From assembly GCA_009869945.1 (NCBI GenBank), contig WIXG01000008.1, forward strand, positions 310,001-374,000: a DNA stretch of 64,000 nucleotides. The letters run 5' to 3'. The notes beneath the pieces are model-generated. The model saw only the letters and a program-made list of their open reading frames with translations, had not been told where the DNA came from and did no database searches. How positions within the stretch are numbered: the first letter of the stretch is position 1; each line of letters opens with the position of its first letter. This document shows positions 5,200-64,000 of this stretch, one piece after another. This DNA is from Mesaphorura yosii (Eukaryota; Arthropoda; Collembola; Poduromorpha; Tullbergiidae). The translations under genes were made by a program, and so were the position numbers.

Positions 5200-7137
5200 T
5201 CAATTTGTCCTCCGCATAATTATTTTTGTATTTGAGTACAACAGTTCAGTTACAATCACAATGCATCCGAGCACGAATCCAGTAGCCAACACTGAGAAGT
5301 GGAACTCGAAATTTTCCATCTTGAAAGCGGCAGTCGTTACTAAACGTTCTTCCATCCGTGCCTTGAGAAAATTCCAAGTGATTTCAGTCTCACTGGTCTC
5401 TTGCTTGTCGCGAGAGTTGAACCAGGCCCGACCGATGCTCGACTCATGAGCAATGGCCTCCTTGTAGAGCTGATTGATGATTCCCGTGTCCCGAAGCATA
5501 GTGATGTAACGCGAGAAGGAGTCTGTGTATTTGGAATTTTTGTCTAACCCAATCGAGTTGTATGACACGTACGCTGGAGCTGAGTCGACGAGTGGAACAA
5601 ATGTCTCGTGATAAATTGTTGCGTTGCGGGCCAGCCCAACGTTCGTCACCGATCGCCAGCCGACGCACACATTCTTCGGCTTCAGTGCTGCAGTCAGCAC
5701 GCAAGATCCAGTGTCGGGTTCAAGGTTAGGTGCAAATCTATTAGAAATATCTCTGTAAACTGGACTTTCACTCGTGTTGAAGAAGGTGAAGCAGTAGCAC
5801 TGCCCGGAACTGAGGTAGTTAAAAGTGATATTGTAGTCTGGCCTCGAAGCGAGCTCCTCGAACGTTCGTGGTATCTCTTCGTTGGATGGGAGGTTCAGGT
5901 ATGAAATCAGATTGGAGTTGTACGCAATGTTAATGTTCAGAACGTATACGAGCCAGACCGCCGTCAAAAAGTAAGTCTTCTTCGGAATTTTTGCCATTTG
6001 GGCGAGTCCGGTTGCAAATGGAATCGTGAATGCGTCGGAGATGTGGTACTTGTTCCTCCTGCCCGAAATTATGGCTTCTATCTTCAGGCAAAACATGTAC
6101 GCAAACGAAATGCAGAGAAATGTGACCAGGATAAGGAACCATGTTGATGGTTTGAAAGAGTACATCATCGCCTCCCACTCCAGCGCCCGCTTTGGGTGCG
6201 CTATGAGAAAAATAAGGGTGTCCACAGACGTGAATGTAGTCAAATCAATTATTCCAATTTGACCTTCAACAAGCCGTGCAACGAATACGATGTCGAAGTC
6301 ACTCTGAAGGACGTCTCCCATCATACCGTTGTACGATCCATTCCCAATTGGCTTACCAGATCCTCGATCGGGATCGATGTCAAATTCGAGAGAGAAGTTG
6401 TAGTACGCTGCTCCGTACTGCAGTATCATGTAATGAGTGCCACCCTTCACTGATTCCGTGGAGTTAGTCTTTTCCTCTTCAGTCAAAATGAAGGGCTTCA
6501 GTGTATTTGCGCTAACTTTGAGGTGATGCCCGTATAGGTTTATGGATTGGTGGTCGAAAGGTGGAACAGTGTAAGAGATTCGAGGTGTTATGCTTCCAGA
6601 CCAAGGTTCCGGCTCCCGATAAACCAATTCTGTAGTCAAATCCACCCCCAACTTATACTTCAGCTTCTGAACCGACGGCAACTGAAAAAGACGCTCAAAA
6701 TCCGAACTCCTGTCAAGAAATAAGTGCACGTCGTACTTGGGCTCGCCTATCGTCCTCGTGTGATGAGCGACTTTTCTCAGGCTGTCGTAGTCTAAATCGA
6801 CTGTGCAGATCAAAAACTTGAAATGAGTGCAGGAGAAACGCGTGTTTCTTGGAAGTCGTCTCGAACTGGCAGAAGTTTGCAGCAGAATTGATGGCACAGC
6901 CAGGGTTTGTGTAACTTGCTCGAAGTTGAATGAGTCTGATTCAGTACTTCCAGAATTGCAATCAGAGAACACCAATGGACAATCTGTTGATGTTTCGACC
7001 ATATAGAGCACTTGAATTAGAAAATTTGTGGTGGCGACAGTGTCAGTACTCAATGGGCTTGGTTGAGATTGGATGAGATTTAGCCAGAGAAGGACAGCAG
7101 CCGCCGTCGTGATGAAATTTCTTCGTCCTGGCCACAT
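5200..7137 (-). CDS. Divergent ionotropic receptor (IR), single exon
   Basis: One uninterrupted frame of 645 codons with ATG at 7137-7135. IRs are protostome chemosensory channels derived from ionotropic glutamate receptors, acting in dendrite membranes of sensory neurons. Visible parts: signal peptide in the first about 25 residues; a short divergent N-terminal domain; a first ligand-binding half with NGSYNGMMGDV and a following FVARL; membrane helix 1 near residues 328-350; a pore region and helix 2 around YFLTAVWLVYVLNINIAY; a second ligand-binding half; and a final helix near 605-628. Intronless coding is typical of the species-specific, taste-like divergent IRs rather than of the conserved IR8a/IR25a types. 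The stop codon faces that of the protease-CAP gene across 12 nt, so the 3' UTRs must overlap. The ligand cannot be predicted. Confidence 0.9.
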   Translation of the reverse strand: MWPGRRNFITTAAAVLLWLNLIQSQPSPLSTDTVATTNFLIQVLYMVETSTDCPLVFSDCNSGSTESDSFNFEQVTQTLAVPSILLQTSASSRRLPRNTRFSCTHFKFLICTVDLDYDSLRKVAHHTRTIGEPKYDVHLFLDRSSDFERLFQLPSVQKLKYKLGVDLTTELVYREPEPWSGSITPRISYTVPPFDHQSINLYGHHLKVSANTLKPFILTEEEKTNSTESVKGGTHYMILQYGAAYYNFSLEFDIDPDRGSGKPIGNGSYNGMMGDVLQSDFDIVFVARLVEGQIGIIDLTTFTSVDTLIFLIAHPKRALEWEAMMYSFKPSTWFLILVTFLCISFAYMFCLKIEAIISGRRNKYHISDAFTIPFATGLAQMAKIPKKTYFLTAVWLVYVLNINIAYNSNLISYLNLPSNEEIPRTFEELASRPDYNITFNYLSSGQCYCFTFFNTSESPVYRDISNRFAPNLEPDTGSCVLTAALKPKNVCVGWRSVTNVGLARNATIYHETFVPLVDSAPAYVSYNSIGLDKNSKYTDSFSRYITMLRDTGIINQLYKEAIAHESSIGRAWFNSRDKQETSETEITWNFLKARMEERLVTTAAFKMENFEFHFSVLATGFVLGCIVIVTELLYSNTKIIMRRTN

Positions 7138-40980: not shown

Positions 40981-43900
40981 ATGAGCGTGCGCGAAACACG
41001 TGGTGGGCCTTTGGCCCTGGAAGCATGGGCCAGGAATCACATCGATGGATACAAGAATTGCTCAATCAAAAATATGACAACCTCATGGAGAAATGGTTTG
41101 GCCTTCTGTGCACTAATTCACAGATTTCGGCCAGACTTGATGTACGTTGTACATTTTCATTCAAACAGATGGAAGAGTTTCTAAATTATTGTATTTGTCG
41201 CGCATTTCAGAAATTATGACGACCTGGACCCGAACGATATTGTTGGAAATTGCACCTTGGCTTTCGAAACTGCAGAGCGTCAGCTGGGTATTCCCGCCCT
41301 GCTGGATCCAATGGACATGCTTGCGCTGGAGGTTCCAGATCGACTATCCGTGCTGACATATGTCGCCCAGTATTACAATACATTTAAGAACACGGGAGCG
41401 AGAGCGGTCTTCAATGGGGCTGGTCACGAGACAGCCACCGTCGAGCGGGTGAGTATTGCTCTTCTCTTGCATGGCGTCCGGGCTGAGTGAATGGAACCGG
41501 TCCAGTACTTTTCCGTAACACGTAGTCCATTTTCATGCGACAGCTCCATGTTCCTTGTATAACCATTCAAATGTCAATATTACAAAGGAAACTGAAATGT
41601 CACACTGAAACGTTTTTCGCACCGCATCAGTGATCTCTGAAATACTGAACTAAAACCACTCTTTCGTGCGATGCTTCGCGTTCACGTTATAGACATCCTT
41701 CCTTCCTGTTCCATTATTTGAAGGAGCATTTACAATTTCATCGGTTCCATGTCATGTGCGTCAGCGTCAATCCTTTACTGAAAGCAAACTCAGCCAAGGT
41801 TGGGCTGGCGTGATCGTGATCGGGTTGCTTCAAAGGACGTTAAAATTAAAAAAGAATTCAAGTGTAGTTTAATTACGTACAGTAGTAACCCTATTCACAC
41901 GTACGCGTCACATGCACTTGACATGCCACATAGCAGCAGCGTAGTGAATAAATTGCTGACTGTGACTAAAATAGAGCACAGGTAGGCAGGCCAACCGACA
42001 AAACGCAATTATCTTGTGGGAATAATTTATGGTCTGCTGTAATCGCATTCAATTTGAGTCGCTACCATTAAACCCACTTTTATATTTACTTTATTTCAAG
42101 ATGTTAAGCTCTCTCGAGGCTCTGATCTGTGTTATTACGCATTCGTGTGCCCGCAAATTAATCAGTCTTAATGAATGACTCATTTATTTACTATTTACGT
42201 CTTCAGTATTCTTATTCCGATAGTTTGTATATTTTGAGGCTCTAAAACTCTGAATTGGCCCCGGGTTTAATGTCTCGCCGTCGCTCCGACTTGGCTAAAA
42301 GAAGTGGATAACCTCCTATCAGGTTATTCCAAATGATAAATGCAAATAGTCAGACTTGATAGACATGAATCATATCAAGAAACGCAAACTGAGTAATTAA
42401 CCTTGATGTGTGCTTTGCAATGCCCGTCCTCTGTCCATCAGTGAGAGGTTGCAGTAATTTACAAATTTACACGTACTTGCTCGCCACATAGCCATATTAA
42501 ATGTAAAACATAGACAGAATACACACGACACGCGCGTCGAATGAGTAAAAAATACAGCTTGCTTAGCTCAACAACAGCAAAATGAAGGCAATTACACTTA
42601 ATCTCGTTACAAAAAGCGTGGTTTAAGATTAGAAAGTTTATCCGTGTACTGCGCTTGTCTGTGCAAGGTGTAACATCTGATTCGTTATCCCCAAATAATA
42701 TCAAGATTAAGCCATTGTAGGATTCATTGTAAGACGAGAGTCGTTTAGTCTTGATCTGCACGCGCGTAAGAAAAGTTGTACATTGTTGTGACGTGGCTGA
42801 AGTGGCTGCGGTGCGGTTGCAATTCGTCATTATTTGAAGTGAACGTAAATTTTATTGACATACTTTGTGCTGTGTGTGTGTATTTCTTCGTTCTTGTGAG
42901 CAGTCCTTCGTAATTCTAACCAAGTTTCGAAATTCCGATGTACGTGTGCCATCCACTGATTGAATACAGCAATTAGCGTTAATGTCTGGACTCCTCGCCT
43001 CAGGATCTGAAACGGAACTATGATACAGTAATAATGCGGTAAATGAACTTATATATTATGAGTTACTCTGGTTTATCTGTTGTCCCCTCGGGGTTAGTTT
43101 CCCAGGAATAAATTTTATGTAGTGGCGTAGGTCACAATTGCAATTCTACTTCCAGCTGCATGTGCTTTCTCGGCTGATGTGGATTGTGTGGAACATTTCA
43201 TAGCGACTGGGAAATCTGAATCGGAACGTTCCGATTTCTCAATTTCATGGGCGGGCATACATACGAATGAGACGCTCCATTAATTACTATTTACCACGCA
43301 GTTCTTCATTTACAAGTTAAATGGCATAATGGTACGCTTCTCAGATGCACGCTCCGAGTTCAGTCCTGTGAGAACGAGAGCAATTCAATGCGTAAACGAA
43401 CTGTAACAGCTTTCCGGTTCACATAAAAATACACAACACCATCCTTCGTGAGGATGATTAGACGGATGATGGATGGAATGAATAATGCATAAGGACATGA
43501 AAAGAGTTCATCTATTAATTGTACAATTCCGTTTCGTGTTTCACCAGAGCGGCAGAGCCATTGGACTTTGTCTTGTCACTCAGAAAGCTTTCAGAAGATA
43601 CAGCGCTAACTGTATCAATATTCAGTATCCTCAATGCAAATCAGTTTAGTATCGGTATTTCTTTATGCAAAACCTTGAAACGTGCCTTCTTGAATCTTGC
43701 ATTCAAGAAGATCGTTGTACAGCGTTATTATTGGATCATTAAGCGCTGGATGATGTCAACACGGAATATTTTATGGCCTCGCGCAGCATAAATTCTTTTC
43801 ATGTTGACAGATGCGAATAATTTATGGCCACGTCAAAGATTTTATTTGCATGACTCACTTGCCTTTGCCTCTTAACATGGAAAACTTAATTGTGGCGTCT

Positions 43901-46900
43901 TTTCGGTTTTCACAGAGAAATGGCAACCACACCACAAAACGTACGCTTGACATTGAAGATGAGGCGCTAAACGAAGCCCGGAAGAAGCTGTCCGCCAACT
44001 CTTCGCCAGTGATGTTGCGCAACAGCGCAGCGTGCTCTGTTTGCCAGAACCCCGTCTTCATCTCAGAGCGCATCCTATTCAACAAGAAACTGTATCATCG
44101 GTCATGCTTCCGCTGCTTCAACTGCAATAATGTGTTGAACCCACAAACGGCAGATACCTCGAATGAAGGGCTGCTATTTTGCATAGAAAATACGTGCTTC
44201 ATAGAACTGCAGAAACGAAGTCGAGAAAGTAAAGTAAATACAGCCAATTCGACATCTAGCATCAGCACGAATTCTGTGACCGAGAGCCCGCATAAACTAA
44301 AAGAGTCGGCTAGCGAACACCGCCGAAGGAAGGAGGACAAACACAAGATTGAGCTCCCGAATGTTTCTGCGTTGAAAAAATCGTTTGAGACTGCCAGCAG
44401 CAGTAGCAGTGGCGTCAGCAGTGAAGCGCAGTCACTCGATTCCACAAATAACCAGCCAATTGTTAGTATCAATGAGGACCAAGGCCAAGTGCACGAACCA
44501 AAAATACGATTTGATGAAACGGTCACCGTAAAATCGTCCTCTGAAGACGATGCTTCGAAGAATGAAAGTGCGGCAACACAAAAGGAATTGAAGTCAGCAA
44601 ATGAGACGGACGAAGTTCAGGAATTGGGGAGGAGACAACTTCACGAAAGTCCATCGAGGACTTCTGTGCGACCTGAACCGTCCGATCAGTTTGTACTTCG
44701 ACCAGATTCAAGTCTGATATCGCAGATTCAGCAAAGAGAAGAAGAGGAAGTAATACGAAGGAATACGGCTGCGAATGAAGGCGTGGCAAGAGCCGAGTTA
44801 CGCACCACGTCCGGAATCGATGTGAAGTCAGTGAAGGAAATGCCAAATATTTACAGTGACTCCGTACTGCCAGTTTCTCAGTGCCTTGAGAGAAATGTGC
44901 TGCAGCTGGACGATGGCAAGAAAAATCAGTTTTTGAGCGGAATGCTAAACGAGAATGAAGACGCCATGAATGAGAACTATGATAAAGTGAAAATTAATGC
45001 CGAAAATCAAAATTCGAAAGCGGAACACAAAAGGCCAGAGCCAGTTGAGCCAAAACCATGCCAGACTGTGAAAGTAGGACCTGAAATCAGACTTGAACTG
45101 GAGCCTGGGACCGAGGTCGTTGTCAAGCAGGAGGTGAATGACGCAGAGATCAAGGTGAAGGTTGAGCCAGTTGAGACGATAGAAAAGAGTGAAGAGCTCA
45201 CAGTGCCGATGCTACCAGCAACTCCACCCTTTGTTTCAAAGAGCGCAGTGGTAATCTCGCCCACGGCGGCGGCGACGACTACTGAGGAAAGTCCGGGACC
45301 AAGTCCCATGCCGAGAAGGAAAAGTCCAGCTCCAAGCATGACCAGCACAACTTCAACAATGTCACTCACAGAAACAGCAAGCACACCAAGTCCAGCACCA
45401 ACACCACGACGTGTGAAAACGAAACCACCAAGACCCGCACCGCCGTCCAAAGCATCACTTACGTCATTGACTTCTGTGACCTCGAGAGGATCCATCCCAT
45501 CCGCCAAAGAACTGTGGAAGAAGGACAATTATTATCCATCAGAACTGAACCCGTTTGAGTCTGAGGAAGATCTTCCAACTCGACCTAATTCTACAAGTGC
45601 CGTTGCTTCTTCTCCTGCCAGTACAGCAGTTCCAGGAAATCCATTCGAGGACGATGAAGATGAGCCAGTCCAAGAAAAAGCTCCAAGCCCGAAGCCGTCG
45701 CCGAGAGTGCGTTCCGCCCGGAATCAAGTAAACAGTATAACAGAATCCCGCCATCGTTCGCGTTCACGATCAAAGTCCAGATCTCCATCACGAAAATCTC
45801 AAATTAGTGCATCGCCATCACCGGCACCCTCCCCACGTGTTCCCAGACCTGTGTCCCTGCCTGCCCAAGCACCGAGCTCAGAACCCAAGCCATATAATCC
45901 ATTTGAAGATGGCGATGACGAAGAAAATTCTGTTCCACCTTCAGAGGCAGAATCCGAATCATTTTCATCTCAAGTTGTTCGTCGACGCGAAGGGAGTGGA
46001 ACCAGTTCAGGAGCCAGCAGTGTCTCGGCCCCGGTTCCCAAAGCACGACAGTCGCTTCCAGCCACAAGTAGCGTAGAAGTAGGGTCTATGAAGAAATCAA
46101 ACAAAACCAAACGTGCTCCATTGCCACCAAGTCAGGGCTTCGCCGCGTCTCCGTCCAATCCCAGCTCTGAATATTCGAATGGAGCTGCTTCGACGACACC
46201 ACCTCGAAGTCCTAAATCAATTCTTAAGCACGCGAATAATGAAAACCAAAACCGGTTGATTTCTCCCTCCTCTACTTCTGGAAGTCCCAAGAAAGTAATT
46301 CCAGCCTCGCCAGATCTCCTTCGAGGCCTGAAAAGTAAACCCAAGAAGAAGCGGCGTGCCCCTCCTCCACGGCGTCGCGTGGAGCCACTGCCGGAGGAGG
46401 CGATTAAGAGGGAAATGAATGACTTGATCGTGAAGGAACGTGAATTGGAAAGGCAGGGAATCACGCTGGAGTCCAACATTCGTCGTCTCATGGAACAGCA
46501 GGAAAGCATTGTTGTTCCTGAAGATGGTACAAACCAGGGCGAGGGTGAAGGGGTAGGCAGCAGCATTGAGCAACAAGTAGATGAAATGATGGTTCAGTTA
46601 TGGAACATTGTCAATGAGAAGAACGATATTCTCAGACGCCAGACTGAATTGGAGTATTTAAGGAGAGGACATCGCCTAGAGGTAAGTCATTAATGGCTCT
46701 TGACTTGGGTGCTGTTTCAAAGTTGTGTTCGTGTGTTAAAATACCCATATGTAAAAGTATCGTACGTTCTGTTTGTCATTGATGCAACGTTGTTGAATTT
46801 TTAGGAAATGCAAGCGGAGCTCGAGTTCAAGCTCCGTGTCTTGATGGACACACCCGTGCACGAAAGGCAGAATGATTACGAACAAGTTGAACAAATGCTG

Positions 46901-51018: not shown

Positions 51019-51301
51019 ATGGCGTACACTCAACACTTATCACTCAACTTCTTGGTTGCAGTCTGCATTATCGGATTCTTGTGCGTCGGACTGGCAACTG
51101 CTTCAATGGGGAAGTTTCAAGTGAAGTACGGCGAACGCTTTAATTTAACCCTTGAACTTTGCTCGGATTTTCTTTGATCCTGTTCTTTGTTTCAGGCTTG
51201 AGCATTCTGGATCCGACGGTGGCCGCATAAATACAGTCATTTCGATTGATCCAATCTGTGCTGAAATTGCGTTCCCAAAGTTTAAGCTTGGCTCGTGCTA
51301 A
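51019..51301 (+). CDS. Small secreted protein, unknown
   Basis: Two exons: 51019-51125 and 51196-51301; 70 aa. Residues about 8-30 are a strong signal peptide (LVAVCIIGFLCVGLATA). The mature part is about 40 residues with two cysteines (DPICAEI and the C-terminal GSC), which may form one disulfide. The donor at 51126 was chosen because it gives an open frame through exon 2; the GTGAAG six bases earlier would lead to an immediate stop. It sits directly upstream of the membrane-protein array and shares its strand, but lacks a membrane segment and the Tyr/Gly tail, so membership of that family is not shown. Confidence 0.58.
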
Positions 51302-51874: not shown

Positions 51875-52742
51875 ATGAAATTTCGATGTGGTCGCAACTT
51901 TTTACTGTGCACAATTACAGTGATTTCATTGGGCCTCATCTCGAGGTTTTGTTGTACTCAAGCTGTAACCATTGCAAGTGAAACTGGCATCACCGCACGT
52001 ACCACAAATTCCAGTGGAGATCCGAAGCCTTCTAGAAATATCGAATTTGCTCGGAGCAGTGATTTTAGTACACAGGAAACAAAGTCTAATATCGCCGTGC
52101 TCAAGAAAAGCCGTCATCGTCCCAAGTCAAGAACTGTAAGGCAGCCTGCAACTGAAAGCTCAGCCCCAATTCTTCCAAAATTCGACTCTCCATCAGTTCT
52201 TTCTGCTGAAGTTGGGACAGGTCGCGCGTGTGGCATTGCTCCCGTAAGCACTACGACCATTTCAACCATCTTAAATCAAGATCTCGTGTCTGGAGAAATT
52301 GGAGCGCTAATTGGCGGTGCAGGTGTGGCGAAGGCGATAGCGATTGCAATCGCAGTGGCCATTGCTGTGCATTGGTGGTGGATTGTTAAAATTGCCATTG
52401 GAATCGCTATTTGGTGGTGGTGGTATGGCGAAGGGTAAGCTTCTTCCAGATTAAGTAAGGAACATGTCTGCGCTACTTGGCCATGAACAAAATTTTATTG
52501 TTGTCAGTGGTAAGAAGGACGACGAAGGATACTTGCATGGATGGACCACGCCAGTCCCGGTCTACGGTCCTCCCAAGCCACAGTATGGAGCTCCGGTCAG
52601 CGGATATGGCCGACAACTGTATGAGTCACTCGATTTCAGTCACCTATCTGAGAAAGTACTGAAGGCATTGGATTTCTTCGAGAAACACAACTTGAGCGAA
52701 ACCAGCACCACGCATCCGGAATCTAGAAGCTATCTTCGTTAA
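51875..52742 (+). CDS. Array gene A: type I membrane protein with Trp cluster and YGPP tail
   Basis: Exons 51875-52434 and 52508-52742, phase-2 intron; 264 aa. Signal peptide in the first about 30 residues. The ectodomain is Thr/Ser-rich with a basic stretch (KKSRHRPKSR) followed by PILPKFDSPSV, and one Cys in GRACG. The membrane segment (about 150-183) reads AIAIAIAVAIAV, then HWWWIVKIAIGIAIWWWWYGE, with a Lys in the middle. The tail has VYGPPKPQYGAPVSGYGRQ and an amphipathic end, LSEKVLKALDFFEKH. B and C share this tail nearly word for word. The single ectodomain Cys suggests a disulfide dimer. Topology (tail in cytosol) is inferred from the signal peptide. AATAAA near 53038. Confidence 0.85.
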
Positions 52743-53121
52743 TCTCTCATGCTTAAATTCCGTTTAAGTGCAATCTGAACTTGCATGGTGTCGTCGCTGC
52801 TGAACCTGTTGATCTTCTTTCGAATGGAAGAAGTTCGCCTTTTCTCTTGAGTTTTTTCACTGGTAATCTACTAATTATTCAAATTATGTATAGCAGTGCA
52901 ACTTCATCTAATTTCACTCACAACTGTTTCCTTTGTACCTGAAGAGCCATGTTAATTTTAATTGCTGCCCATTGACAAAAGAAAATGACGCGTGTGACTA
53001 TCGACTGTGTTCTTAATGCAAACGACTCGGAACATTTTAATAAATGGAAGTAGAGTAACTTCACAAACACTTTTCAGTTCAGATTCAGTTCAGTGATTTT
53101 TAAGAAGAGCAAGCGTGATGC
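52743..53121. other. Spacer between array genes A and B
   Basis: 379 nt with the gene A poly(A) signal near 53038. Nothing else recognised. Confidence 0.4.
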
Positions 53122-53751
53122 ATGAAAGCTGATTCAAAAATGGAATCAACCTCCAAAGGCAAAGAATCGTGGGTTTTACTGATCCTTGTACTGATAATAT
53201 CTGCCGCGGATGGAGGAACCACCGTTTTGACAGGCAATGGCGCTGTCACGGATCGCGGCTGCAGCACGGGATCAACCTCCACAGTCACAACCTCCATTTT
53301 GCCCAGTAACCTGTTCAGTAGCGACATCGAATCCTGGATTGGCGAAGGCGCAGTCGCCATTGCAATCATAATTGGACTGATTTGGATAAAGATAATCATT
53401 ATCGCACTTATTGCCTGGTGGTGGTATGGAAGGTGAGTGAAATTTACCACTTTTTGTCATTAATATGGCAGTTTATCACAACGGCTATTTTCCCGAGCCT
53501 ACAGCAGCGAAAAAAACATAGGAGGGAAGGATGAAGGCTACGGCCATGGCTGGGGCTCGCCGAAACCCATGTACGGGCCACCCAAACCTCAGTACGGGGC
53601 TCCTATGAGTGGATATGGTCGGCAACTGTACGGATCCTTCGATTTTAATCGGCTTTCTGAACAAGTGCTGAAGGCTCTGGAGTTCATCGAGAAGTTTCAG
53701 TCAAATGAAGTCGACACTGGCAGCAGGGAAATGAAGGAGAGCAAAACGTAG
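53122..53751 (+). CDS. Array gene B: type I membrane protein with Trp cluster and YGPP tail
   Basis: Exons 53122-53432 and 53505-53751, phase-2 intron; 185 aa, the shortest of the A-C subgroup because its ectodomain is only about 50 residues. Signal peptide around residues 16-31 (WVLLILVLIISAADG). One ectodomain Cys in DRGCS. Membrane segment AVAIAIIIGLIWIKIIIIAL then IAWWWYG, with the same buried Lys as in A and C. Tail: MYGPPKPQYGAPMSGYGRQ followed by LSEQVLKALEFIEKF. The acceptor at 53504 was chosen over one three bases later; either keeps the frame. AATAAAA near 53882. Confidence 0.82.
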
Positions 53752-54551
53752 TTTTACACTTTAAACGATGTGAGTGGGTTGAAAATTGCAAAGTAAAAAT
53801 CTCGCGCGACAACATGTACAACTTTTATGATATGAAGTTTCATTAATGGATCACGTTAGTTTTTGATCAGGGATGTCGGAAGTAAATAAAAGGACTTTCT
53901 TTCGCCTAAGATTCATATTATTTTGCTATCTTGCTTAAGTTGAATGTCCGCATTAGACTACACCTAGTTGAGATGCTTGTTGTATTCTGGTTGTAATTTC
54001 GGTATAACACAAACTCCGTATTCTATACTTTTTTAATAAAGCACGGCGGCGCATTCTCAGAAATTCGTTAGCTCATGCCACACGGTTTGTCAAGGATTAG
54101 AAAGTATCCGTACTGGTTCTACGTCTAATCAATGCGGAAAAGTGAAAATGAAAATTTCCAATACACATGAAACCCAAGCAATTACTCTAATTCAAGCGTG
54201 TCTTCATGTCTCCTAAAGTGGCAAACCTTCTCACCACCACGCTGCCACGCAATTGTTACCTTGTACTTGAGAATCGTGTACTTGTCCTCTGCACATCTGC
54301 ATGCAAATGACTCAACTAAACGTCAAGAATAACGCGTACATTTTTGGAAATGGGAAGAAGATTCGTACAGGCACTTTCTAAATGCAAAGTGAAGATGAAA
54401 AAGTAAGCATCTGACTCCGATAAATAGATGAGCCGAGCCTGAGCAATTGCCACTTGGTCCTGTCAGTCGTCATAAGATAAGCGCTTGCTGCGGTTTTGGT
54501 TTAGAAATATTTCACTGACATGCTCTAGCTGTGAACCTTGTCACCATTTCA
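53752..54551. other. Spacer between array genes B and C
   Basis: 800 nt, the widest gap in the array. Poly(A) signal of gene B near 53882. A GATAAATAG at about 54419 and a TCAGT initiator at 54463-54467 are candidates for the gene C promoter. No decayed copy was recognised. Confidence 0.45.
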
Positions 54552-55514
54552 ATGGAGCCCAAATACCTCGAAGGGTCCATCGTCGTGCTCAGGGTCTCGA
54601 CTTTCACTGGCTGGGTAGCACTCCTTCTTGTCTTAAGCGCCTTTTCCGTGGAAGGAGCCAGCATCTCCAACTCTAGTAAATTCAATTCAACAGCCACCAA
54701 CATCAGCTCAATAGCATCATTATCACCAGCGGCACTTCTGCGAAACTTTGATTCTGCTTACGGTGACAGGTCCAAATACGCCCGTGACAATGACTTCAGT
54801 GATCAAGATCAAATCGATCAACAGCAGCAGCCAAATCAAAAGGCAAAGCGGAAACGACGTCGGCGACCTCTCACCCTCAGTGCCGCAACAGAAAGCTCAT
54901 TCTCATCGATAATTCCAGTCTCAGTACTGCCGAAGTTTGATACTTCAAGTAGCTTTGTCGCTGATAACGGAGCTGGACGAGGTTGTGGCGCTTCTACGAC
55001 CGCTGCAACCACCACCACGGTCAGACCAAACGTGAATATCCTCGGCGAAGAAGCACTGATCGGAGGAGGCCTTGTAGCTAAAGCGATTGCTATCGCAATC
55101 GGAATAATTGTGATCAAGATAATAATCGCCGCGATTATCGCATGGTGGTGGTACGGAGGGTAAGAAGTCAACATGATCTTAAATCTTAAGCCAGCAAAAT
55201 GGAAAGTAATTCGAATTTTGCGCGTTCTCTCGTGGTTCAGTGACAAGAAGGGCGGTGGTGACGAAGGGTACGGGTGGAGCTCCCCAGCACCTGTGTATGG
55301 ACCACCCAATCCGGTGTACGGAGCGCCTCAGCCGACGTATGGAGCTCCTGTCAGTGGATACGGACGACAACTTTACGAATCGCTCGACTTCACCAGACTA
55401 TCGGAAAATGTGCTCCGGGCGCTAGATTTCTTCGAGAAGTACTACTACTCAAATGACGCTGGAACTGATAATGGAGGAGCCAGGACCAAGGCCTTGGAGA
55501 AAAAGATTTCCTAA
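54552..55514 (+). CDS. Array gene C: type I membrane protein with Trp cluster and YGPP tail
   Basis: Exons 54552-55159 and 55241-55514, phase-2 intron; 293 aa, the longest member. The frame is open a little upstream but the first ATG is 54552. Signal peptide ends near SVEGAS. The ectodomain is Ser/Asn-rich, then a very basic stretch KAKRKRRRRP that looks like a proprotein convertase site, then SVLPKFDTSSSF (matching A) and one Cys in GRGCG. Membrane segment VAKAIAIAIGIIVIKIIIAA then IIAWWWYGG. Tail: three YG[PA]P units, SGYGRQLYESLDF, and LSENVLRALDFFEKY. If the basic site is cut, the released part would be about 90 residues, leaving a short membrane stub with the Cys. AATAAAA near 55590. Confidence 0.86.
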
Positions 55515-56121
55515 CTGTACTTACTAATTTATTACAATTTTGCATATGATAGTCCCCACGAGGCACCTGAGCTTTTGAACCGCATGAAGTCAATAAAAAG
55601 AAGTATTGTTATTGGCTTCAAGCATTCATTTGAATCAGAGGCTGATGGAATCGAGACCAGAATGGAGCAATTTGAGTCAATAGGCTACGCTAAATGAGTA
55701 CTCTTCTAGCATATTATGTCAAGAATTTAAGCAAAGTTGGCACAGGCACAAAGAAAGTGTTGACACGGCACAATGACTGTGGATAGTGTGGAAACGTGAC
55801 GAACGAGAACAAGCCCATTCACTCATTAAATCTGCATTGTTAATTTGACAGCCTGCACAAGGCTTTACGGGCAATTAAAATCGCGCACTTTGGCAGTGAC
55901 TCATTCAGAGTTCGTGTCCTCATTGCAAATGTCGAGGAAATTTCCAAGGGGAATTTGTATGTCACACGCCACACGCCTTCACGTTTACAACTCGACAGAG
56001 TCAAAGTCAAAGTCTTTATAACGAAAGTCTGCGGTCTCAACTGCTAACGTGAATCGTCAACCTGTCTATTTAGCTGGTGGCCAAGAAATTTCCACCTTCG
56101 ATCTGCATCGAGATCAGCGTA
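55515..56121. other. Spacer between array genes C and D
   Basis: 607 nt. Gene C poly(A) signal near 55590 and a TATA-like box at 56017-56022 for gene D. No gene seen. Confidence 0.45.
56017..56022 (+). promoter_or_regulatory. TATA box of array gene D
   Basis: TATAAC 105 nt before the ATG, followed about 20-25 nt later by a GTCTCAACT start-like element. Motif and position only. Confidence 0.5.
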
Positions 56122-56759
56122 ATGGCCGTGCACATAGTTCTTGCTTTCGTGTTTATATACGCGACCTGTTCAAAGGCAGCACAACTCTCCGACCTTGTTG
56201 CAAATAAAACCAGGATAGATTTGGACATTACTTCAATAAATTCATTCGACCCGGCTACCTTCGTCATGGATCTTGCCATGAAAGTGCACAATTACATGTC
56301 ACAAGGATCGGGGCGAGCTCGTGACATTCAGACACAAGACACCGTAAGCCGAGTTGACTTAATCTCGCTCCTTACAAAGATTACAAGATTTTGATTCTGA
56401 ATCACGTACTATTTTTCTTGAAGACTGGCGTGATTACAGCGGTAATGGACAAAATTCATAAACTTTGGGGTGGAGACTTGTCCACGTTCGGATTTGCCAT
56501 CAGCTTCCCAATCGCTGTTGCCACTGCCATATTCTGGGGCATCGTCTTCATCATCGTTTACCACATCTTCTTCGCGAAGAAGGCTGGTGAATTTGGAAAG
56601 TTCAATTTCTTCAAGGATGAAAAGTACGGCGGCGGTGGCAATGGCTGGTCTGAGTACGGCGATGATTTCAAGAGGAAAACCACATTTCCGATTCCAACGT
56701 CAACATTGAACCAACTCTCGGCACTCGTTAACAAAGCAATCAAATCATTTAAGGGCTAA
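56122..56759 (+). CDS. Array gene D: type I membrane protein, Gly/Tyr tail
   Basis: Exons 56122-56343 and 56424-56759; 185 aa. The intron is phase 0 and precedes the membrane helix; the phase-2 intron after the helix is missing in this copy. Signal peptide MAVHIVLAFVFIYATCSKA. The ectodomain (about 70 residues) is plain, with one Cys at the signal boundary. The membrane segment is FGFAISFPIAVATAIFWGIV then FIIVYHIFFAKK. The tail has the repeated lineage mark of Gly and Tyr (KYGGGGNGWSEYGDDF) and ends in an amphipathic helix STLNQLSALVNKAIKSFKG. No buried Lys in the helix. The frame is open upstream of the ATG without another ATG. Confidence 0.8.
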
Positions 56760-56968
56760 CTCGTCATGGGTCGCTGTCGTTTCAGTATTGCCAATTTGTA
56801 ATTCTAATTTATTAAATGCATGCAATCATAAAGGGCAAAACAAGCTTCATTTTCTTTAACCTACTGAACTAGAAAAATTGAACAAACGGCTCAAACGCGA
56901 AAGTAGCCTTTAATAGGAATTTTGGCGTTGAATTGAGCGGCCAGGCCGATTCGTCCCCAGGATTCGCC

Positions 56969-57581
56969 ATGAACGTATTCTTATTGACTGTCATCATATT
57001 TACAACTGGCTCGAGTGCAGTTCACTCAACGTCTATGGTAAGATCAAATTCCGTCGATTTTGATTTCAAAATCCTTCGCAAAACTTAATTGATGACAGTC
57101 AACACCAAGCTTTGAAGGTCTTCTTCATTTGAGTATCATTTTAGAGCCGTGCCATTGGCAATGAAGTCACCGCAGCAGGAACCGGAACATCATCAACCTC
57201 GAACTTAAACAGCTTAATCGGCCTCTCCAACAAGAACGCCAACAACCCAAACGCTGTCGCTGTCTGGCCTTGGCTCACGGTGGGTGTCATTGTTATCAAA
57301 GTCTGCATTATTGCCAAATGGGTGGCAATATTTGCGTGGGGCTGGATCATGACTGGGCTCGGAATCGGGACGAAGGAGTTCCATGATAAATAGTAAGGAA
57401 TGGTCCAAATCGTTGTCCATCAAGTTACTGCATTGACTAACGCTATAACATTACATGCCGCGCGTTTAACAGTTTTCAGCTTACAACGACGACGACCGAA
57501 ATGCCCACGACTTTAAACTTCGGCAGTTATGGAGTTGCGCCTGCATCGTCCGATTACGGATACGGAATGATGGGGAGGTAG
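56969..57581 (+). CDS. Array gene E: short type I membrane protein
   Basis: Exons 56969-57037, 57145-57392, 57473-57581; 141 aa. Exon 1 is a signal peptide (MNVFLLTVIIFTTGSSA). After the phase-0 intron, exon 2 has a 45-residue Asn/Ser/Thr-rich ectodomain, then the membrane segment VAVWPWLTVGVIVIKVCIIA then KWVAIFAWGW. It has a central Lys like A-C. A phase-2 intron follows and exon 3 gives a short tail with Gly/Tyr (NFGSYGVAPASSDYGYG). The exon 3 acceptor at 57472 is supported by frame; the AG eight bases later leads to a stop. The C-terminal helix of the other members is missing, so the tail looks truncated. AATAAA near 57737. Confidence 0.76.
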
Positions 57582-57935
57582 TTAGGCAAACGATCTAAAT
57601 CGCAGCTATCCATGTGGCTGAATTTATCAATTTGGACCATATCTTGCGAAAGCTCAACCCAGGTGTGGCCACTGGTCATCAGCTATCAGCATCGGCTTCA
57701 GTAAACGTCCTGAATTGTCGACGTGCTCTGGTAGGCTCAATAAATCGGAATTTATTCACGGTAATTGAGAACTCGCACTCGTTTGCATAATGACACGCTC
57801 AGCTGTTGTTATTTTGGTCTGAAAATAAGTTTAATTACTGGCTGCCTGCTGGCAATAAGTCGCATACGACAAACTCGAGTTCGACACAAGAATTTCTACC
57901 ATCCATAAACATCGTTCGGTCTCAGTCGCCAGAAC
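57582..57935. other. Spacer between array genes E and F
   Basis: 354 nt containing the gene E poly(A) signal near 57737. Nothing else seen. Confidence 0.4.
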
Positions 57936-58807
57936 ATGCTACATTCTTGTCCCTCGTTTAAAATGGAGTTGTGTTCAGCTCGCTCAAGTTGTGCGATGTT
58001 AATTTTGTTAATACTAAACTCCGTGGCAGAAAATTCAGCACAGGCACTGAGCTCCACCACTGTCGCAACGAATTCTGCACAGAGCCTTGAAAGCAACAGT
58101 ACAAGTTCTAACTACAAGTCAGAATTCGATGGACTTGATCCCAAATCGACTTCATCTGTCGCTGTCGGGCAGAATAGTTCTTCGAAAATCAGTTCAATAC
58201 TTAAAGATGGAGGGGATGCTACAAACTTGTCAACCTTATTAGATGTAAGTCATGTAAGCACGTGCGAAGCCGAACACATATCTGAGCCCACGTATCTGTT
58301 TAATTCAGTTTTCAGCAGTTCAGTTCTTCTTGGATAATGTCATCGGTGTCAATCTGAACACAATCGCGGGTTGGCCAGGTTGGATTCACATAACAATTCT
58401 GATGACAATCTTCTGGACCGGGCACCTGGTCATCACCTCTGTTGTCTGGCTGGCTTGGTATTATTACGTTTTTGGACCGGAAAAATACAAAGAGTAAGAA
58501 ATATGCATTTTTAATTAAATTAAAATTGTCGTGCTTGGTTGACAGCAGATACATTTCTCAAGTAATGCATTGTATTTATAGATTTTTCGACTGGATATCG
58601 TCTAAGAAAGATCGAAAGAAGAACAAGAAGCCTTCATCAACGTACGGGACGTCATATTACGGTGGAGACACTGGCACAGACGACAGCCTATTTTCAGGGT
58701 TCTTCACCACTTATTCTCAGTTGAGACGAAGTAACTCTGATGTAACTGGAGCAGTGACTCAGTTGGTGCAACGAGTGTACGACTCGCTTGAGCAAATCGT
58801 CGGCTAA
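57936..58807 (+). CDS. Array gene F: type I membrane protein
   Basis: Exons 57936-58244, 58324-58493, 58582-58807; 234 aa from the first ATG, or 225 from the ATG at 57963, which gives a more normal signal peptide (CAMLILLILNSVAENSA). The ectodomain is Ser/Asn-rich. After the phase-0 intron comes the membrane region: IAGWPGWIHITILMTIFWTG then HLVITSVVWLAWYYYVFG, with aromatic residues at its inner end. After the phase-2 intron the tail begins with a Lys-rich patch (SKKDRKKNKK), has a Tyr/Gly part (YGTSYYGGD), and ends in an amphipathic helix, VTQLVQRVYDSLEQIVG. The exon 2 acceptor (58323) is one of several AGs nearby; this one keeps the frame and opens at FFLDNVIG. Confidence 0.76.
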
Positions 58808-58902
58808 TTCTTCGAGGCTCATGCTTCCACGCAATACAAGTACTAATTAAATCAGCAGTGATTTTGCAAGCATTACTTTGCAAGATACAGTTAAAATAAG
58901 TG

Positions 58903-58909
58903 TATAAAA
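58903..58909 (+). promoter_or_regulatory. TATA box of array gene G
   Basis: TATAAAA 165 nt before the ATG at 59068. Classic core sequence; no initiator was pinned down. Confidence 0.55.
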
Positions 58910-59067
58910 GTGTTAAAATAAGCATTTTAGCTAGGTGAAGCAGTTGAGTTATTAAGCCATTTAAACGAACTCCGCGGTTAACGGCGCAAGCTCGTTCAAA
59001 ATATCAGCGTTTTGCATATGTTTGTTCTATCAGATTGGTTTCTCGAATCGTGATTAGTTCAGTAAAG

Positions 59068-59772
59068 ATGTCCACACAGTTGGCTCATTCAATGCTTTGG
59101 TGTTCAGTCCTGTTCGTTTTAATCGTAATTACTCAAGGTCAAAAGACGCCTTTACTTGAGTCCTCTTCGTCTGTTGATTTAAACCCCTTGAAGAGAATCG
59201 CAAATGGGTCAAGCACAAGCAAAACTGACACAGCAGTTGGAGGTCGAAATGACTCTGGGAAATTTATTTCGAGGCAAGAAGTTGATGTAAGTAATGTTCA
59301 GACGTACCTTGTTATGAAATCCATTTACTCACGTCGTTCTCGCAGGGCCCCGCCACCGTTGGCGACTGGTGGACATTCATCGGCACTTGGAGTGGAATCT
59401 ACACAGTCATAATTATTGTAGCGTTCGGTTTCGCAGTCCTCCTCATCCTCATTTGGATCGTTTGGTCGTGGTTCTTTTATGGGCTCAATGGCGGACTGTA
59501 ATTTATGCATATTTATAGGCTTTGCATGTTTCCCAATTTGAAATGTTAACGAATGAATTAATTTGTCATCGCCGTCTAATTCCAGCTACAGCCCGGTGTA
59601 CGGTGCTTACGGGAGACCCGCAAATTACAACAATTCTGGGCGTGGACCAGCGATCGGGCGCTCAGCTTGGGAATACCTTCATAATTATGATTACAATACA
59701 ATCCATTCGATTCTGAACTCGATTGAAGGTTTAGTTGACTTGTACAACAACGTAATAAACACGAGTACGTGA
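59068..59772 (+). CDS. Array gene G: type I membrane protein, Gly/Tyr tail
   Basis: Exons 59068-59286, 59346-59497, 59586-59772; 185 aa. Signal peptide MSTQLAHSMLWCSVLFVLIV. Ectodomain about 50 residues, Ser/Thr/Asn-rich. Intron 1 is phase 0. Exon 2 holds the helix: IYTVIIIVAFGFAVLLILIW then IVWSWFFYGLNGG. The phase-2 intron lies immediately after it. Tail: SPVYGAYGRPANYNNSGRG then an amphipathic helix, NTIHSILNSIEGLVDLYNN. No buried Lys. This copy shows the family plan most plainly: one exon for ectodomain, one for membrane, one for tail. Confidence 0.82.
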
Positions 59773-60123
59773 ATTTTCTTTCGCCGGGCGCCAGTAACTA
59801 TTTTGGGATATCTGGCAAAAAGCTACAAGTTTTGTGGAAGATGAGTTGAAGATCTGTCGGTATTAATGAGTTCGACTGTTTGAAGTACACGCATTTGAGA
59901 GAAAGAAGTTGCCAACATTTACTGCAATTGTCATTGTAAAAGGATTCAGAAAATTAACATAAATGAGGCCTAATTTCTTGACTATATGCAAGTTTGGGTG
60001 ATTGTTATTGGTTCCTTACAAATACCGATAAACTTCGGCTACACGGAATGAATCTGACTTATGCGAAGCGCCTTGCACGTCGCCGTCCGTCCCTAATTTC
60101 TTGAGTTTCAATGCTCTAACGTA
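59773..60123. other. Spacer between array genes G and H
   Basis: 351 nt; no gene or clear signal recognised. Confidence 0.4.
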
Positions 60124-61094
60124 ATGTCTCGAGGTGTGTTTAAGTTTGGGTTGATTAGTTTCCTGGTGGTTTGTGAGATTTCAAATGGGCTTCTAATTCG
60201 TGACAAATCGTCGTCCACAGTTAAAGAATCGACGGGTAGACAAGACCTGGAGTCAGACGATGACAGTCTGGATACTCTGTTCAAAGATGACAAATTCTTC
60301 ACTGAGTTTGACCAGAGTGTCGAGCAAAGAAAGCGAACGACATCGTGGACACCCGTCTCGCCTGAGATCACTGCAACAATACCATCCACAGAGGCTCCAG
60401 ATGCTGAACATCTTCAAGGCAAACTTGGCATTCAGCAATTACCGCACTCGTCCAAACCAGAGTCAACGTCAACTTCAGAAAACATTTCATCGTTACCGAC
60501 GCCAGCTTCGAACACTGCCAGCGACTGCAGGAACGGCCAGAAAACTTTTCTGGATACCGCCAACGCTGGGGTGAGTAACAGTACGCTCGCGTGCCTCAAC
60601 AACTGACACACACATTCAATTTTCAATGCTGACCCAATCCAAATTTTAGTTCACGTCGGTCACCGACGCATTGCTTGGACTCATTGGCCTAAGTACAATG
60701 CAAACGGCAGTTTACCCTGTCATCATGATCCTCGTAGCTGGCGTCACCGGATTTTTTTGGGCCGCCGTGTTTTGGTACCTGTACTCTAACTTTTTCAAAG
60801 GCGGAGGCTACTTTGGAGGAAATGGCGGAAGCGACGAGTGAGTAAACGTATTTTAAAATAATAAATTGTTCTTGTCCAGACCAAATTTACATATAAACCT
60901 TTTTGTTCAGATTCGGTCTTGGATTTTTCAAGAAAGACAAGTACAATAAGTACAACAATTACGGGTCAGCATCATCATCAGCTTACGGGCGTAAAAGTGG
61001 CCTTGACACTGACTGGGATTTCTACACAAAGGTTCTGAGTAACCTCGCATCGTATGGGTGGGACAAAATTGAGGACTCTTACGGGATTGAATAA
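60124..61094 (+). CDS. Array gene H: type I membrane protein
   Basis: Exons 60124-60570, 60650-60837, 60911-61094; 272 aa. Signal peptide MSRGVFKFGLISFLVVCEIS. The ectodomain is the longest of the three-exon members (about 125 residues): acidic first, then Ser/Thr/Pro-rich, with one Cys in SDCRNG. After a phase-0 intron: VYPVIMILVAGVTGFFWAAV then FWYLYSNFFKGGGYFGG. After a phase-2 intron: a Lys/Tyr patch (KKDKYNKYNNYG), SSAYGRKSG and a terminal amphipathic helix (DFYTKVLSNLASYGWDKIED). AATAAA near 61177 ends it. Confidence 0.85.
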
Positions 61095-61493
61095 CAGAAG
61101 AGGCAGCAATTGAGGCGACATAGAGTATTCGGGCCGCGAAGATCATTAAGACTAATTATTCTAACGCAACCGTTTGAAATAAAAAATAATAGAGTTATGA
61201 GTAGCATTTTGAATGTTTACTGCTCGCCAGTCTCCGTCGCCCGCAGTGTTTACGTCCTAGTCCTAATGGCGATGACCTGAAAAGATGGGCTAACACGCCA
61301 ATTTCGGCACAACGTACTCGATAGACGTCTGTGCCCCTGGTCTCTGACGTTTTCGCTGTTTTAGTCTGGTGTTTAGCATCCATTTACATTTGGTGCCAGC
61401 CCGGCAATGACTTCCCAAGAATTAACGCGCAGTATGTACGAAACGAGAAGTGCACCGTAGTTTAAATTCGCGGCTCAATGTAGTGGTTTCAGA
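61095..61493. other. Spacer between array genes H and I
   Basis: 399 nt with the gene H poly(A) signal near 61177. Nothing else recognised. Confidence 0.4.
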
Positions 61494-62365
61494 ATGAAGG
61501 ATTTTCACTTTTTATCCAGTAATCGTGCACTATTTACGGGTCTAGTGATATTTACTTGTTTGTGCAGTTTCTCCAGTAGTTTAGATGATGGCCACTTTGA
61601 CCACATAGCAAGTGATAGTGAAAATACAGCTGTCAGCCTGATTCAGCCTGAAGGAGGCGACGGAAGGGCGGCTTGTCCGGTAAGTTTAATTTGCTTCAAG
61701 TCTGAATGTGATCTTCTGCGCTCAAAGAATTTATGCATAATGCATTGACACTTTCCCAGTTTTGCGTGAGCGGCGAGTGCAATACCGCCACTCAAGTCTC
61801 TGGACTGCCCATCATTCAGTTGATAGCTGCTACGATCATTGGTCTGGTATGGGCGGCCATCTTTATTTGGTTGTACGCTAGCTTCTATGAGAGTGGAGGT
61901 GAAGGATACGGAAAGAGTCCGGGGTATGGTTACGGACCCAGCCCTGTGTACGGACCACCAGCTCCAGTGTATGGACCCCCGGCACATGTGTACGGACCTC
62001 CAGCAGCGGTGTATGGCCCACCTCCCTCCCCATCGTATGGACCTCCACCTGCACCAACATACGGTCCTCCTCCCTCGCCAGTTTACGGACCTCCGCCTGC
62101 GCCATCTTACGGCCCACCTCCAGTGCCAGTGTACGGACCACCTCCTTCGCCCTCCTACGGACCTCCGACAGCACCAGCGTATTCGCCGGCTTCACCAGTA
62201 TACGGAGCACCCATCACAAGTTACAGTGCTCCAAGCACGCAGTACCAATCGCGTGACGGTGGTACAATTGGATCAGGGCAAGTAAAACCGCCGTCGAAGA
62301 GAGCATCCCTAGCATCAACGTATTCCAGAGTATCCGATTCGTTCGATGGGCTTAAGAGGCATTAA
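61494..62365 (+). CDS. Array gene I: type I membrane protein with YGPP tandem repeat tail
   Basis: Exons 61494-61679 and 61760-62365; 263 aa. Signal peptide around residues 12-29 (ALFTGLVIFTCLCSFSSS). The ectodomain is short and acidic and ends in Cys: ACP, intron (phase 0), then FCVSGECN, giving a three-Cys knot just outside the membrane. Membrane segment IIQLIAATIIGLVWAAIFIW then LYASFY. The phase-2 intron of the other genes is missing. The tail has about twelve YGPPxPx units, then a Ser/Arg-rich end with SRVSDSFDGLKRH. The repeat echoes the two or three YGPP units in A-C, so it looks like an expansion of that motif. AATAAAG near 62691. Confidence 0.86.
61931..62214 (+). repeat. In-frame tandem repeat coding YGPP-type heptads and octads
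   Basis: About twelve units within gene I. The first units are seven codons (YGPPAPV, YGPPAHV, YGPPAAV), the later ones eight (YGPPPSPS, YGPPPAPT, YGPPPSPV). Unit length change and near-identical DNA (TACGGACCTCC) indicate recent slippage or unequal exchange. Confidence 0.9.
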
Positions 62366-62963
62366 GTTCTGTGAAGTTCTATTCCAATGGCTCGACTTTC
62401 CATGGCGCGTAAACGAAGATCTTCCTCGTACTTCGAACATTAACCTTGTATGACGTTACGTGTATTTTAGAAGTACGGATTTATTTCCAACGGTGGCGGC
62501 GTAACAAAAAGCATAAATACTAATTTTGAAACTGTTAACTTATATTTTGACCAATTTATTTAATCTAAGAACCAAATCTGTAGTTATTGTCATTAAGTAG
62601 TCCGACGTTTTATTGTATCGAGACAACATTTCATGATTCATAAACTCGTTGCCGTCTCCGCCGTCTATCATATTTGCAGGTACTGAAAACTGAATAAAGC
62701 ATCTCTTGAATTATTCATGAACGACAGTAATTTGACAAAGACGAGCAAGAACAAGAACTTGGCCAACAGTACAAAATTAGCACGCTAATTTTTACTATCC
62801 CGGTTGAACTGAATTTGAAGAGTTATAACGGACGGTGAAATTCGGAGCATCGCATCGCGTCGTTTGACCTTGTTTTGTTGTTTCGCATTCATCTCCATTG
62901 TAATGATTTATGTGCTGCGCAACTTCCCCTTTGCTGTCACTCGTCACTTTTCTCACTTTCAAG
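62366..62963. other. Spacer between array genes I and J
   Basis: 598 nt; gene I poly(A) signal near 62691; no other gene recognised. Confidence 0.4.
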
Positions 62964-64000
62964 ATGCGTCCAAGAAAGATATTCGGTTTACTAATTCCAC
63001 TACTACAAGTTATTCTTCTGCTCAAATTAATTGAACTTGTGCGTGGACAAACGGTGCAGGAAGACGGATCAGGGGCTCAGGCTATCCAATACGTGAACGC
63101 TGTGCCGTACAACCAAAATGGCGTCAAAACGGACTCATCAGCCAATTTAGCAGTACCAAATGTTAACGTCAAGCCAACTTACTACGATCATCACACCGGA
63201 AGCGTAATCGCTGCTCCAGGCCCAGCAGATGCGGGCAATGGGCAATCACGTTCGCTTCCAGTCTACCAGCAACGGAAGCAGACAATGTACCAACGTCGTC
63301 ACCGGCGACCGTACTGGTCCTCCACAAGCACGTCGACTGAGGCTGCGACCACCATGATCGTGGAGGAAGTAATCGAGTACTCAGACAACGGGACGGAAAT
63401 CAATCGAGAAAATGTCACGAAAGTCGTTCGCCTTCCACCTCAGCAAAAACTGGTTCCTCTCTGTCCGGTGAGATTCTTTTTCTGGGAATTTTGCCCACTG
63501 AACATTCCAATCCTGAACCTCTTCCTTCCGAAAGAATATTACGAATACTGAATACCACTCCCAGCTGACCTGTCCATTCCAACCGAACTTTTAAGTCGAT
63601 TATCTGTATAAAATTGTATTACTGTCCTCGAAACGCCCCACGATTGAGCTGACAGACTCCTGGACCGAGGACAAGACGGACTGACGACGCGACACGACGC
63701 GACAACGACCAATCTGACGAAGGTAGATACTCTGCTGACCAATGACAACCAGAAACAGTCAGACTTTAACTTTAACTTACGTCTTGCTTTTGTCTGTGGA
63801 TAGACTGAAGGCACGTGCCTCAACCGGACTCAAATACCTGACAACCACGAAGTGCAGGACTTGTTCATGACTACAACAGTGAACATTTCACGCATAGTTG
63901 ACAATTTCCTGGACCTTCTTCATTCACTGACATCTCTGGTGCTTCCTGAAACGGAGGAACGCCAAGTCCAACACGTTCGACAGTCGACGCTGCTTGCATT
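62964..64000 (+). CDS. Array gene J: probable family member, incomplete at the window edge
   Basis: First exon 62964-63477 in the favoured model: signal peptide (FGLLIPLLQVILLLKLIEL), Asn/Gln-rich ectodomain, a basic convertase-like stretch QRRHRRP, then Thr/Ser-rich, then Cys-Pro at a phase-0 donor GTGAGA. This is the same place where gene I has Cys-Pro and its intron. A second open stretch, 63804-64000, follows an acceptor (GTGGATAG) and reads TEGTCLNRTQIPDN onward to the edge with no stop; it could be exon 2 but has no membrane helix yet. Alternatively the frame simply reads through the donor and stops at 63551, giving 195 aa with a hydrophobic end (FFFWEFCPLNIPILNLFLP). An ATG further upstream (62910) is also possible. 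Membership in the array is inferred from position, signal peptide and the basic site. Confidence 0.5.

Follow-up and report, generated by a model that had tools for sequence, protein, structure and literature searches.

An apparently undescribed tandem array of ten candidate type I membrane protein genes with tyrosine- and glycine-rich tails in the springtail Mesaphorura yosii

The window analyzed here, a stretch of 64,000 nucleotides (contig C8, positions 310001-374000) from the 93-Mb, 1127-contig assembly of the springtail Mesaphorura yosii, ends in a dense array of genes on the plus strand, hereafter genes A to J. Nine to ten tandem genes had been proposed at this site by an original prediction made from the sequence letters, and ten gene models were recovered, spanning positions 51875-64270 with a spacing of 209-800 bp. 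The final 270 bases of J lie past the window end, in the 10 kb of contig sequence that follow (L006). The frame from ATG to stop was uninterrupted in all ten models, which are listed below with protein lengths in amino acids (aa) and intron phases in order. As far as tested, the array represents an apparently undescribed family.

Gene A, 51875..52742, plus strand: 264 aa; exons 51875-52434 and 52508-52742; phase 2 intron; Ile/Val/Ala helix, WWWWYG, YGPP tail and C-terminal helix.
Gene B, 53122..53751, plus strand: 185 aa; exons 53122-53432 and 53505-53751; phase 2.
Gene C, 54552..55514, plus strand: 293 aa; exons 54552-55159 and 55241-55514; phase 2; ectodomain with a polybasic stretch.
Gene D, 56122..56759, plus strand: 185 aa; exons 56122-56343 and 56424-56759; phase 0; Gly-rich tail with 2 Tyr.
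Gene E, 56969..57581, plus strand: 141 aa; exons 56969-57037, 57145-57392 and 57473-57581; phases 0 and 2; C-terminal helix not clear.
Gene F, 57963..58807, plus strand: 230 aa; exons 57963-58244, 58309-58493 and 58582-58807; phases 0 and 2.
Gene G, 59068..59772, plus strand: 185 aa; exons 59068-59286, 59346-59497 and 59586-59772; phases 0 and 2.
Gene H, 60124..61094, plus strand: 272 aa; exons 60124-60570, 60650-60837 and 60911-61094; phases 0 and 2; without a standout C-terminal helix.
Gene I, 61494..62365, plus strand: 263 aa; exons 61494-61679 and 61760-62365; phase 0; 162-aa tail with 19 Tyr, 14 YG and 43 Pro.
Gene J, 62964..64270 (window part to 64000), plus strand: 300 aa; exons 62964-63467, 63804-64105 and 64174-64270; phases 0 and 2; no YG tail.

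All 15 modelled introns have GT...AG borders and are 59-107 bp long, except for the first intron of J (336 bp). The introns before the hydrophobic helix were in phase 0 in seven of seven cases (D-J), those after it were in phase 2 in eight of eight (A, B, C, E, F, G, H and J), and no modelled intron fell outside these two places. The first, pre-helix intron is missing in A-C, and the second in D and I. The common intron phases named in advance were thus borne out at every modelled intron. Splice sites were picked by eye to preserve the reading frame, so both the intron rule and the gene models are provisional, pending transcripts.

The proteins are 141-300 aa long and contain one main hydrophobic helix each. 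A hydrophobic N-terminal core that fits a signal peptide, as judged by a hydrophobicity measure and not by a dedicated predictor, is present in A-I and in J. It is followed from residue 26 by an ectodomain of 40-205 aa with a Ser/Thr content of 18-35%. The ectodomain contains sites resembling basic cleavage sites (RxxR, or else three basic residues) in A, C, H and J, and cutting at these sites is a guess. At the exit of the helix, all ten proteins carry 3-6 aromatic residues within 10 residues. The helix itself is of the Ile/Val/Ala type in A-C and partly in E, and those of D, F, G, H, I and J contain Phe or Trp too. The hydrophobic stretch of A extends over at least 28 residues and is possibly more than one simple helix. 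On reading the sequences, A, B, C, E, F and J were seen to have a Lys or His inside the hydrophobic stretch (within the Ile/Val run in A, B, C and E), and this residue could serve to pair with another helix.

In the tails, YG is present in nine of the ten proteins, and YGPP, as read from the sequences, is restricted to A, B, C and I. A C-terminal amphipathic helix stood out in eight proteins, at no more than 55 of 1000 shuffles (A 18, B 4, C 2, D 55, F 7, G 16, I 42 and J 12). AlphaFold2 predicted a long helix for exon 2 of D (19-57; mean predicted local distance difference test score, pLDDT, of 91 for block 31-40) and a C-terminal helix (92-109; blocks at 74 and 79), as well as a helix in the tail of C (50-72; blocks at 84 and 75). 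The order of parts given by the original prediction therefore held in all ten proteins for the signal-like segment, ectodomain, single helix and aromatic cluster, but its Ile/Val/Ala helix only in A-C and partly in E; its Gly/Tyr tail and amphipathic C-terminal helix were found in most copies, but not the YG in J or a standout helix in E and H. From this order of parts we infer a type I topology for A-J, hence a cytosolic tail.

Genes A, B and C are clearly related, with the tails of A and B being 65% and 58% identical to that of C. Substitutions among the three amounted to 0.62-0.66 at third, 0.38-0.40 at first and 0.27-0.38 at second codon positions; with third positions most and second positions least diverged, this indicates coding-type divergence. 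The rates of nonsynonymous (dN) and synonymous (dS) substitution were 0.43 and 2.8 for B-C, and dS was not computable for A-B and A-C. The tail alignment comprises 94 columns, of which 39 are invariant, including SGYGRQLY and LSE, and follows the pattern SGYGRQLYESLDF...LSE.VLKALDFFEK. Judging from these invariant columns and a B-C dN well below dS, the A-C tail is evolving under constraint.

Links among all ten genes were evaluated with 500 shuffles that preserved the composition of each segment, using either the helix plus tail or the helix region alone. With the tail included, AB, AC, BC, AI, BI, CI, HI and DH were at 0/500 shuffles, F-G, B-F and B-G near 2%, and D-I at 21/500; outside A-C, 5 of 42 pairs reached 1% and 13 of 42 reached 5%. 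With the helix alone, AB, AC and BC remained at 0-1 of 500 shuffles, followed by HI (0/500), DH (1/500), FG (1/500), BF (4/500) and C-E (24/500), and the pairs outside A-C at or below 1% and 5% numbered 4 and 7 of 42, respectively. The links of A, B and C with I were lost in this test (BI 43/500; AI and CI outside the best 16 pairs), which indicates that they rest on the YGPP tail. In a leave-one-out profile test, which is weak, D, F and H reached 1.2-1.3% and I 3.2%.

By sequence, the groups are thus A-B-C, D-H-I and F-G; the bridges between them are the I tail with its YGPP and the match of B with F. E and J are placed with the others by gene structure and position, not sequence. The single tandem family proposed earlier stood as far as the shared gene plan and the array are concerned, but was divided by sequence into two groups, a pair and two unlinked genes. 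The case for descent of all ten from one gene is made chiefly by their gene plan, their intron phases and their position. The alternative is that A-J are not one family at all, but two or three unrelated small groups (A-B-C, D-H-I and F-G) plus E and J that are alike through a common signal segment, helix and Gly/Tyr. This would fit the lack of a link at 1% between A-B-C and D-H-I on the helix alone, the low-complexity nature of the YGPP run that makes the tail-inclusive link, and the leave-one-out failures of A, B, C, E, G and J. However, the introns of D-J agree in phase and place, E, F, G, H and J have a second intron that matches the one in A-C, B and F are linked on the helix alone, and the genes form a dense array on one strand; we consider separate origins unlikely.

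None of the ten proteins matched a Pfam family over the cut-off. Four matches below the cut-off were judged to be chance, i.e., RCR for B (E-value 0.034), FAM199X for C (0.32), ApoO for H (0.21) and FHA for J (0.094), as were six PDB matches to a nine-sequence helix profile (A1), the best of which was connexin 43 (E-value 0.053; 25 profile residues). Among 5.8 billion proteins, no relative was found for full-length C at E ≤ 1 or for the helix-to-tail part of A at E ≤ 10, the other eight proteins not being searched there, and a receptor gene from the same window (5200-7137), used as positive control in that database, yielded five relatives. A literature search covering titles and abstract openings, with most subscription papers outside it, returned no such family. 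The earlier statement that no known family is recognizable is therefore borne out so far, with neither C nor the A tail finding a public relative and no single gene reaching an unrelated known family at the Pfam cut-off (0/10).

The M. yosii genome was queried with A and I at E ≤ 0.001 and with H, D, F, J, G and E at E ≤ 1 (B and C were not queried). No convincing copy was found outside the array with these eight queries, only a YGAPP repeat on contig C730 (L011) and a weak match to J on contig C143; the search depends on the seed, so distant copies may escape, and most queries missed the other array genes too. The match on C143 (L025; G000:C143:26956-27171) is to the helix-to-tail part of J, with an E-value of 0.056 and 32% identity. 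For about 91 kb of non-array DNA close by, read in six frames as 1189 reading frames, the best match to a profile of all ten proteins had an E-value of 0.46.

Tentatively, we favour the reading that A-J form a lineage-restricted secretory or apical membrane family whose tyrosine tails associate with one another, possibly Osiris-like in working but not Osiris (the insect genes are compared below). Tandem duplication would have produced the genes, and their type I products would sit in the secretory route or the apical membrane of epidermal cells that make cuticle. The signal segment would direct the low-complexity ectodomain into the lumen, where it would perhaps be trimmed at the basic sites of A, C, H and J, and the single helix with its aromatic belt would fix the protein at the inner membrane face. 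There, the Tyr/Gly tail could act as a set of multivalent tyrosine stickers, on the model of the synaptophysin tail, with the C-terminal amphipathic helix resting on the inner leaflet. The paralogues together might then build membrane patches that concentrate or bend the membrane where surface material is deposited. The gene plan, intron phases, spacing, pair links, A-C tail constraint and predicted helices support this reading, along with the precedents of synaptophysin and Osiris.

Several observations weigh against it. Neither shuffle test placed any pair with E or J at or below 1%, and in the leave-one-out profile test six of ten proteins (A, B and C, held out together, and E, G and J) were indistinguishable from shuffles. 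J has no YG in its tail, and the C-terminal amphipathic helices of E (368/1000 shuffles) and H (165/1000) did not stand out. The AlphaFold2 models were built from one or three sequences, with low overall mean pLDDT (66 and 57). The membrane-patch system of cuticle-making cells is a combined reading that we infer, in which epidermal site, expression and localization are putative. The surface-layer, adhesion or membrane-shaping role offered in the original prediction likewise stays conjectural. The main counter-evidence is the presence of YGxP runs in a secreted-looking protein, L011, indicating that the motif may be extracellular.

That protein bears on another possibility, in which A-J are matrix anchors, i.e., adhesive or structural proteins tying cells to the cuticle or surface coat, in which YGxP would serve as matrix material and cuticle would be bound by the ectodomain or the tail. 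The short L011 gene (G000:C730) carries YGAPPAPTYGAPPAP repeats and, by eye, starts like a signal segment, which puts the motif in a likely extracellular protein, and the Ser/Thr-rich ectodomains of A-J resemble stalks. L011 shares YGAPPAP runs with the tail of I, but the frame read has no helix past the signal-like start, and the match is to the repeat only (E-value 6.4e-10). A signal segment and one later helix, however, lead us to expect the YGxP part of A-J in the cytosol, and an amphipathic C-terminal helix suits a role at the inner leaflet better. Anchoring to matrix is, in our view, somewhat doubtful. Beside the L011 gene, on the opposite strand, lies a Gly/Pro/Gln-rich reading frame.

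Alternatively, A-J could be cargo receptors or adaptors for trafficking, with sorting signals in their tails and each paralogue escorting a different secreted product. Y..hydrophobic motifs occur in the tails of nine proteins (D has none), and the ectodomains are the most variable part, both of which speak for this role. Short motifs of this kind are often expected by chance in Tyr-rich tails, however, the count being raw and without background, and PPxY is absent from all ten proteins; we regard this role as rather improbable.

Even without a cuticle role, the array would be an apparent orphan family, seemingly evolving fast, that has retained its gene plan and intron phases with its sequence almost erased, and the constrained motif of the A-C tail offers a search handle for other springtails.

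Upstream of A-J, GCGTGT/ACACGC was found in 7 of 10 regions versus 10.5% of 400 background windows (uncorrected for the number of 6-mers tried), and the grainyhead-like AACNGGTT in 1 of 10 versus 4% of the background. Loose TATA-like strings (8/10) and TCAGT-type initiators (3/10) are raw counts without background.

Elsewhere in the window, the receptor gene at 5200-7137 (minus strand) is a single-frame, divergent ionotropic-receptor-like gene of 645 aa, whose five database relatives are 37-43% identical, the only named one being from Folsomia candida. A 960-aa protein with LIM and bMERB domains (Mical/EHBP-like) is encoded at 43811-46693; its gene and one with RCC1 repeats are neighbours of the array. 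Directly upstream of gene A, 51019-51300 may hold a small secreted or membrane gene, in which visual inspection allows one intron. Downstream of J lies a reading frame (L006:1440-2289) that on visual inspection contains several hydrophobic segments; Pfam gave nothing for it at E ≤ 0.1. Across the assembly, TTAGG gave 40 matches to five consecutive units (reversed control, 0), and mitochondrial COX1 gave no match. Dioxygenase genes of the PF14226 type are typical of springtails; this N-terminal family had 12 matches in the assembly, with contamination a possible source.

Among known proteins, the tails are best compared with synaptophysin, which has four membrane spans, unlike the one-helix proteins A-J. 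Nine Tyr of Y-G-(P/Q)-Q-G repeats in the synaptophysin tail are described as required for phase separation (PMC8424992). This cytosolic tail is like those of A-J in its Tyr-Gly-Pro repeats and in the location expected for them (PMC8424992), a likeness that claims no sequence relation.

The overall plan is closest to that of the insect Osiris genes (PF07898), described as a tandem cluster encoding a signal peptide, a two-Cys region, DUF1676, a putative transmembrane domain and an AQXLAY region (PMC3284338). Like them, A-J are clustered in tandem, have a signal segment at the N-terminus and one putative transmembrane helix, carry tyrosines near the C-terminus and vary in their linkers (PMC3284338). 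A signal peptide and a transmembrane domain were found in A-J by hydrophobicity, the latter also as a predicted helix in exon 2 of D. In contrast, DUF1676/PF07898 gave no match in the ten proteins (hmmscan, E ≤ 1), the exact pattern AQ.LAY occurs in none of them, and no pair of Cys is common to the proteins in the part from residue 26 to the helix, where the Cys counts are A 3, B 1, C 1, D-G 0, H 1, I 3 and J 2. A-J instead have an aromatic belt and a longer YG tail. The same source calls Osiris insect-specific and mentions weak springtail matches among expressed sequence tags (PMC3284338). In this assembly, L013 (G000:C222:34886-35215, minus strand) is a marginal DUF1676 match (24.7 bits in the genome search and 24.0 bits by hmmscan; cut-off 24.3). 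The coarse order of parts, tandem arrangement, Tyr-rich ends and this marginal match could point to a diverged Osiris branch, but given the missing DUF1676 (at this sensitivity), AQxLAY and two-Cys region we give that origin very little credence.

Insect Osiris genes pattern cuticle nanostructure and, with Gore-tex, give a precedent for a family of clustered one-helix proteins that patterns surfaces (PMC11151929, PMC12755865), and springtails have a nanostructured, wetting-resistant skin (PMC6083677, PMC3184130). A bolder form of the favoured reading, in which a membrane-shaping system of the springtail lineage, not related to Osiris, would template liquid-repellent cuticle nanostructure through apical patches of the ten paralogues, the majority of them bearing tyrosine sticker tails and amphipathic helices at the end, appears distinctly improbable. 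If a cuticle role were true, the array would provide a ten-gene target for the building of patterned skin in a non-insect hexapod and a case of convergence with the insect Osiris clusters.

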